Assembly (NCBI RefSeq): GCF_009014635.1
Contig: NZ_BKCF01000001.1
Span: 372,001-436,000 of the forward strand
Reading direction: 5' to 3'
Length of the DNA: 64,000 nucleotides
Origin: Patiriisocius marinistellae
GTDB taxonomy: Bacteria > Bacteroidota > Bacteroidia > Flavobacteriales > Flavobacteriaceae
A program made the position numbers and the translations under genes. Below the pieces are notes generated by a model. It did no database searches and was not told the DNA's origin. It worked only from the letters and a program-made list of their open reading frames with translations. This document shows positions 50,721-53,519 of the stretch, in pieces (position 1 is the stretch's first letter; each line of letters opens with the position of its first letter).

Positions 50721-50903
50721 ATGGAAGCATTAGTTATATTTTCAGTAATAGGTTGGCCACAGATTGTATTAATCGCTGTGGTAATTTTATTGATTTTTGG
50801 AGGTAAAAAGATACCAGAATTAATGAGGGGTCTTGGAAGTGGAATTAAAGAGTTTAAAGACGCTTCAAAAGAGGAGGAAGATGAACACAAATTAGGAAAA
50901 TAA
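50721..50903 (+). CDS. tatA: twin-arginine translocase TatA/TatE family subunit
   Basis: 60 residues. One membrane helix (about 10-26, [18 protein letters not shown]) is followed by the hinge [13 protein letters not shown] and an amphipathic, charged tail. This is the TatA pattern: oligomers form the transport channel for folded proteins. No tatC is in the window. It is monocistronic, with a -7 element and a strong terminator. A copy of CTTCGGAAAT starts 8 bp after its stop codon. Confidence 0.95.
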
Positions 50904-51960: not shown

Positions 51961-51995
51961 AAAAAAACCCTAAAACTTGAATGTTTTAGGACTTT
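51961..51995 (-). terminator. terminator after the clan CD protease-like gene
   Basis: CCTAAAAC (51968-51975) pairs with GTTTTAGG (51982-51989). On the minus strand the hairpin is followed by GGG and a run of T, about 30 bp after the stop at 52021. Confidence 0.75.
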
Positions 51996-52020
51996 TTAAA
52001 TTTTAAGAAAACGGACGACG

Positions 52021-53226
52021 TTACCAAGAAAGTCTATCTGCTTTGCGTAAACCAGGATCTCCCATAATAATCATCTTTGAAGAAAAGTTCATATTCTCTT
52101 TTCCACTCATACTTGATCTGTATTCATTTCTACTAGCGCTCAACCATACTTTATTAAAATAAGCTTCAGAGCAATCTCCACTGCCTAGTACAGTTGTAAA
52201 GAGCTTACATTTTGGGCTAAAAGATGTTGTCTTTGAATCTAAGACAATTAATGATTGCATGACTGTTCTTGCAGAAGCAGTGTCTGAGTTGTTTAAAGAT
52301 GTATCAAAACGTTCTCCACTATTCCATTCCCTCAAAAACTTATTGCATTGATTAGGGTAGAAATTAATAAAGCGAGCACCACAAACTGCTTTTGCACCAG
52401 CTGCAATAAAGTTATTGTTTAAAGTTGAGCCATTACAGTTGATTTGGTATACCATACGTAATGGAAAGCGTCCTCCGGCATATCTTCCCGTATCAAGCCC
52501 ATTAATATCACTATTTGTGATCGTTACGTTATCTTTCATTGGGATTCTTTCATAGGTTCCATGACTATGGATAATCAAGTCTATGTAATATCCATCGTCA
52601 GCAAGATCGCGTAGCGTTTTAAAAATAGTCTCTTTGCTTGTATCTTTTATGTGCACTGTAGGCTTTTTAGCCTCGGCAAAAGTTTTTTTAATTAATACGC
52701 TTTTATTGTACCCTTCAAATCCATGACTGTATTTATTATGGGCGTTCTGGATTAGGTTATAAAATTTTGAATCCTCAAAAGAAACAATGGTTACTGAAGC
52801 AGATTTTTTAGGTGTTATTAAATCTTCTACATCTCCAGCAGCATCTGTGAGCGTTACCTCATAATTAAGTGTTGTATTTAAACGCCCATCAATTAAATGA
52901 ACTGAATGAGCTCCTTGTTTCCAGTTATTGCTAGATCGTATTGACAAAGAAAAATCATCATATTCGTCTTTTCCATTAAAGCCTTTGTCTGCATCTCCTA
53001 CATAACCGCTTAAACTCACTCTACTTTTTCCTGTAATTTCTACTACTTTAGTATCATTTAATCTAATTGTGGCTCCATCTCGAACACTCTTAGGGTTCGA
53101 TCTTGAACGGGTACATAAAGATTTTCCGTTTACTTTAAAACTGTAGTAAAGTTCACCGTTTGTTTCGTGCGAAGGGTCTCCATTATCGGTTACTTTTAAA
53201 GAGACTAGTTTGATTGTTAATTTCAT
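52021..53226 (-). CDS. clan CD cysteine-protease-like protein (CHAT/gingipain-like) with N-terminal beta-sandwich
   Basis: 401 residues without signal peptide or membrane helix. Residues about 1-130 are strand-rich and look like a C2-like beta sandwich. The rest follows the caspase-haemoglobinase fold: strand and His motif LIIHSHG (218-223), then VYQINCNGS with Cys264 as candidate nucleophile. The helix NFIAAGAKAVCGARF resembles the CHAT/C25 AGAxAVxG block, and MIIMGDPGLRK resembles the GDPxL end of gingipain-type domains. I infer an active cytosolic protease of unknown target. It is flanked by its own promoter and terminator and is not in an operon. Confidence 0.6.
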   Translation of the reverse strand: MKLTIKLVSLKVTDNGDPSHETNGELYYSFKVNGKSLCTRSRSNPKSVRDGATIRLNDTKVVEITGKSRVSLSGYVGDADKGFNGKDEYDDFSLSIRSSNNWKQGAHSVHLIDGRLNTTLNYEVTLTDAAGDVEDLITPKKSASVTIVSFEDSKFYNLIQNAHNKYSHGFEGYNKSVLIKKTFAEAKKPTVHIKDTSKETIFKTLRDLADDGYYIDLIIHSHGTYERIPMKDNVTITNSDINGLDTGRYAGGRFPLRMVYQINCNGSTLNNNFIAAGAKAVCGARFINFYPNQCNKFLREWNSGERFDTSLNNSDTASARTVMQSLIVLDSKTTSFSPKCKLFTTVLGSGDCSEAYFNKVWLSASRNEYRSSMSGKENMNFSSKMIIMGDPGLRKADRLSW

Positions 53227-53519
53227 GATTTAAGTTTTTTTAATTAAACATTAGTTTAAAAACTTAATACCATCAATAAGGGAGGTTATTCTCCAAAAGT
53301 ATATGCCTAATATAAACCCATCAAAAAAAATTAGTAAACGAATGATTTTTTTAGCAAACACATTGATTTTGTGTAAAATACAATAAAGTCAGCTAATGTT
53401 TAAATCAAAAAACCACTCCAAAACATTCTTCTTTTTAAAGTAGTTTTTAATTTATTTTCTACTAATACTCTTTGATAAGAAATTATAAATCAATTAATAT
53501 TTCAGAAGAAATTATTTGA
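53227..53519. other. intergenic region upstream of the protease-like gene
   Basis: These 293 bp carry no supported gene. They hold a -7 element at 53294-53301. A near match to the dispersed word (ATTTCAGAAG) lies near 53503. Confidence 0.5.
53294..53301 (-). promoter_or_regulatory. -7 element for the protease-like gene
   Basis: TACTTTTG on the minus strand fits TAnnTTTG and predicts a leader of about 60 nt for the gene starting at 53226. Confidence 0.45.

Follow-up and report, generated by a model that had tools for sequence, protein, structure and literature searches.

What does a solitary reading frame of 401 codons in Patiriisocius marinistellae encode, and is its product a caspase-like protease? 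The frame lies on the reverse strand of the 64-kb stretch of DNA analyzed here (the window), begins with ATG and is real; its features are collected in Table 1. From its sequence it had been proposed to have the caspase/CHAT/gingipain layout of clan CD, joined to a C2-like N-terminal domain, and the four motifs behind that proposal are all present: HSHG (residues 220 through 223), QINCNGS (holding C264), AGAKAVCG (276 through 283), and GDPGLRK (389 through 395). The protein starts MKLTIKL, and a TAA stop lies in frame two codons before the ATG, so that a hidden N-terminal signal peptide is impossible; the C terminus reads LSW, and no sorting-domain match was found in Pfam or NCBIfam. A promoter-like motif upstream and a terminator-like hairpin downstream make the gene look like a single-gene transcript; counting both strands, the window contains just three motifs of this TTTG/TACTTTTG type with spacers of 17 to 21. 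The original prediction that the gene lacks a signal peptide, a type IX sorting domain and an operon partner thus holds on all three points, the last by these sequence signs and by the want of any conserved neighbor (see below).

Table 1. Features of the locus (window coordinates)
Feature	Position	Strand	Basis
C2-like + CHAT-like domain protein, 401 aa	52021..53226	-	Listed ORF, no known family
N-terminal C2-like β-sandwich (predicted), residues 1-126	52848..53226	-	AlphaFold2, Foldseek and alignment
CHAT-like (clan CD) cysteine protease-like domain, residues 136-401	52024..52821	-	14-member alignment A8 and CHAT profile links
Codon of H222, putative catalytic His (SHG motif)	52561..52563	-	Invariant in 14; hhalign onto CHAT His
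Codon of C264, putative catalytic Cys (NCNGS motif)	52435..52437	-	Invariant in 14; hhalign onto CHAT Cys
Bacteroidota-type promoter-like motif, TTTG-N20-TACTTTTG	53294..53325	-	Pattern scan; about 68 bases upstream of ATG
Intrinsic-terminator-like hairpin	51962..51997	-	Promoter/terminator scan; just 3' of stop

The 401-residue protein has no Pfam match at E ≤ 10 (CHAT, C14, C25, and C2 included); PADLOC gave no match either, and neither NCBIfam nor a direct search against PDB sequences returned anything meaningful. The genome collection contains two full-length relatives, from Algoriphagus antarcticus (61% identical) and a Saprospiraceae metagenome-assembled genome (54% identical), together with eleven more divergent ones that share residues 136 through 401; all belong to Bacteroidota in the GTDB sense. 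These 13 relatives show that residues 136 through 401 form one family, which is rare and in no protein catalogue (Pfam, NCBIfam, PADLOC); no Pfam family covers the domain in any member scanned. Among 98 related genomes the window's own is the single carrier of the gene, and matches were found in 5 of 395 genomes of the phylum and 3 of 395 of the class, the members so added having the C-terminal domain only. Phages and viral contigs held no relatives of the protein, nor did plasmids apart from one match on an Agrobacterium plasmid, which we set aside as chance since it sits inside an annotated ABC-transporter ATP-binding protein. In a tree of the 14 domains the C2-bearing group is not firmly resolved.

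Family architectures vary: the domain is linked to the C2-like module, stands alone, is secreted, or lies inside proteins of ∼810 residues. With signal peptides assessed by eye, the members from three genomes of one genus (L004 through L006) have a signal-peptide-like stretch at the start, two others (L007 and L044) are standalone domains without one, and L017 is a short, divergent form. The contrast drawn earlier between a cytosolic protein and secreted proteases therefore stands for the 401-residue protein but does not extend to the family, which is not uniformly cytosolic because L004 through L006 and L016 start with such stretches. In L016 (L016:433-2268, a 635-residue open frame) this start is followed by a long repeat region, by eye a possible β-propeller, and by the His/Cys domain at the end of the protein, whose C terminus ends GDRNLRKNSKPSW. 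Proteins of about 810 residues from four genomes of the family to which the Algoriphagus genome belongs (L045 through L048) carry the His/Cys domain in the middle, followed by a long uncharacterized C-terminal part with a FGDHFLTDAFAAGHL motif; a conserved gene of 214 to 247 residues or more lies upstream, and the members of this set that were scanned gave no Pfam or NCBIfam match.

Family members are 16 to 64% identical to the query, so that residue conservation is informative. In all 14 sequences of alignment A8, D216, H222, C264, G277, A278, and W301 are invariant, and G223 is nearly so. H220 is not conserved across the 14, where other residues stand in its place; of the two histidines originally proposed, H222 and H220, only the former can therefore be catalytic, while the expected conservation of C264 is borne out. 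The GDPGLRK end is partly kept (GDPGLRK, GNANIRK, GDSNMKK, and GDRNLRK among relatives).

Homology of this domain to CHAT is well supported at the level of sequence profiles. A profile of nine family members (A4), run against a Saprospiraceae-like family of genomes, recovered four more proteins (L019 through L022; E = 5e-8 to 6e-5), all of which score as CHAT above the Pfam cut-off and some of which carry TIR. Alignment of the family to the CHAT alignment with hhalign gave E = 6.9e-9 when the bridging sequence L017 was included and 1.3e-5 when it was left out, and the iterated link is likewise strongest when L017 is included. The real score was 42.9, whereas the highest among 100 column-shuffled controls was 20.5; reversed-alignment controls also fail. 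Restricted to the three closest members, the comparison with CHAT scores 25.4, above every shuffle (maximum 20.4), at an hhalign probability of just 5.8%. The alignment places SHG on GHA, NCNGS on the CHAT Cys block and, after these, GAKAV on GAKAV. H222 and C264 are 42 residues apart, the same spacing as that between H585 and C627 of the Craspase TPR-CHAT protease (PMC9729208). The conserved H222 and C264, together with profile links to authentic CHAT domains that withstood these controls, support assignment to clan CD (caspase/CHAT) from sequence. Direct profile searches for CHAT, C25, and C14 had been suggested as a check: all three stay below Pfam detection, but iterated profiles reach proteins that Pfam does call CHAT. 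PF12770 matched three other proteins in the same genome and not the 401-residue one, which falls outside the CHAT Pfam family as currently defined.

With CHAT (PF12770; Craspase TPR-CHAT, the separase-like branch of the clan), the window protein shares an HG/Cys pair at matching positions, the GAKAV strand after the Cys and the aromatic/Trp-bearing helix that follows; it differs in lying below Pfam detection, in lacking a TPR, NACHT, or TIR partner domain, and in having both a C2-like N terminus and an extended C-terminal region ending G-x-x-x-x-R/K-K...SW. The gingipains (C25; PF01364) are alike in clan-level layout, and we take the GDPxxR-like end of the window protein to recall them, but it has no C25 match, signal peptide or type IX sorting domain and has a C2-like domain instead. 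Metacaspases and orthocaspases (C14; PF00656) share the His/Cys dyad and a mixture of domain partners, yet the C14 profile does not match; no C2 domain is mentioned in the text of a survey that reports 112 architectures for prokaryotic metacaspases (PMC3501461). One further candidate, the DUF4347 protein in PDB 9qpe_G, was matched weakly by profile along the strand that runs up to HG; we made no use of this similarity, as the E values (0.24 and 1.6) are not significant and the match covers half the domain only.

Structure prediction was informative mainly for the N-terminal part. AlphaFold2 run on the protease domain alone (three sequences) gave a mean pLDDT of 32, too low to confirm a caspase-hemoglobinase core. 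In the full-length model, of low confidence in this region, strands 213 through 222 and 256 through 264 end at H222 and C264, and the strand order fits the clan CD pattern. Residues 1 through 127 are modeled as a β-sandwich (three sequences), with pLDDT mostly 70 to 87 up to residue 80 and 54 to 71 over residues 81 through 130. Almost all of the PDB matches listed by Foldseek for this domain are C2 domains (best E = 4e-5); the single-domain C2 matches superpose with rmsd values of 5 to 8 Å, so large that the likeness is one of topology. The C2-like domain of the original prediction is thus backed by modeling, and a C2 β-sandwich topology is predicted for residues 1 through 127.

C2 modules are calcium- and membrane-binding domains best known from eukaryotes, although many of them do not bind calcium. 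In the window protein, D14, N15, D17, and E21 in one loop and D78, D80, N84, E88, and D90 in another are invariant among the three full-length relatives, and the motifs that contain them (DNGDPSHE at 14 through 21 and VGDADKGFNGKDEYDDF around 76 through 92) are ones we take to resemble C2 calcium loops 1 and 3. The eukaryotic C2 domains of perforin, intersectin, dysferlin, and cPLA2, which provide the best Foldseek matches, are similar in the predicted sandwich and acidic loops; the window protein has no detectable sequence similarity to them. The N-terminal domain gave no sequence-level match to Pfam C2 or to any PDB chain, and used alone it found no further carrier in 296 genomes of the phylum.

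Upstream of the gene lie a DUF4837 gene, an MltD-like transglycosylase, and phosphoglycerate kinase; downstream are an α/β hydrolase, an oppositely oriented TatA-like gene, and an M23 peptidase. The kinase, TatA, and M23 names were read from sequence. A survey of homologs, suggested at the outset, found no conserved neighbor; the two full-length relatives belong to different families and have unrelated neighbors. In G007, the nearest sister species compared, the DUF4837 and M23 genes are present with only the TatA-like gene between them; both flanks align to the window and a block of ∼2.6 kb, comprising the gene and the α/β hydrolase, is missing. The same two genes lie close together without the block in G005, and the gene is absent from all 10 genomes of the genus, some of them incomplete. 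This absence, the missing block, and the scattered full-length relatives suggest horizontal movement, and the gene is probably an accessory, horizontally moved, single-gene unit. A foreign origin is not indicated by composition, as the gene agrees with its neighbors in both GC and GC3. The interval between the DUF4837 and M23/TatA genes (window positions 50880 through 53520) is a variable site in the genus; in G006 it is occupied by about 4 kb that includes a DnaJ-type gene among others.

Taken with the domain assignments, these data lead us to a reading that we consider fairly likely: a cytosolic CHAT-like cysteine protease whose C2-like module recruits it to membrane, perhaps by calcium. C264, activated by H222, would attack a peptide bond, and the C2-like module at the N terminus would bring the enzyme to membranes; Ca2+ binding in the acidic loops 1 and 3 would probably mediate docking, which could let the protease reach, or be activated on, a membrane-associated substrate. 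Proteolytic activity, Ca2+ dependence, membrane recruitment, and substrate are all features that we infer. A bolder version, in which one gene supplies a calcium-gated, membrane-docking C2 module and a CHAT-like protease as a calcium-triggered proteolytic switch, in an undescribed clan CD family of Bacteroidota, is in our judgment rather doubtful; its switch logic would parallel that of calpain, with the caspase/separase fold as its base. Calpain is another C2-bearing cysteine protease, and its protease has the papain fold and not that of clan CD. Were the C2-like part to bind calcium and membrane, a bacterial calcium-regulated caspase-like protease would be contained in one 401-residue protein, and a single protein of this size is easy to express and test. 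The family defined here, CHAT-like and absent from Pfam, NCBIfam, and PADLOC, takes cytosolic, secreted, and multidomain forms.

The clan CD fold could also be combined with a C2-like domain that binds neither calcium nor membrane and is a structural or protein-recognition sandwich, selecting the substrate or holding the protease inactive. Relatives replace the N-terminal domain by nothing, by a secretion signal, by the repeats of L016 or by the helical-looking stretch of L045 through L048, which is how interchangeable modules for targeting or recognition would behave, and it also fits that sequence searches matched the domain to no C2 family and no PDB chain. The invariant acidic residues in two loops like those with which C2 domains bind calcium, and the predominance of C2 domains among the listed Foldseek matches, nevertheless argue against a non-binding sandwich, which we regard as unlikely. 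A change in the chemistry is less probable still: that the H222/C264 pocket serves some other thiol or acyl-transfer reaction is very improbable, given that all 14 members, divergent as they are, keep both the His and the Cys and that the pair falls on the protease dyad of CHAT. In favor of such a reaction, no member has known proteolytic activity, G266, just past the Cys, varies (Ala in L001), and the residues around it drift widely in the 14-member alignment.

Craspase and gasdermin systems make use of CHAT proteases (PMC9729208), and the gene is sporadic, found in none of the 10 same-genus genomes and carried in a block that the sister species lacks; both facts would suit a single-gene anti-phage or cell-suicide effector protease on a mobile accessory block. 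Against this stand the missing PADLOC match, the absence of defense genes beside the gene or its relatives and of a sensor domain, and the several relatives that look secreted, which is ill-suited to an intracellular suicide effector. An immunity role for the 401-residue protein is thus possible but unsupported, and we judge it improbable. Compared with such an effector, the membrane-recruited, CHAT-like protease remains our preferred reading. Canonical CHAT domains also occur in this genome: the three matches (G000:C1:787265-788038, G000:C2:402389-403180, and G000:C1:915522-916430) lie in open frames of 897 to 1083 residues, far from the window.
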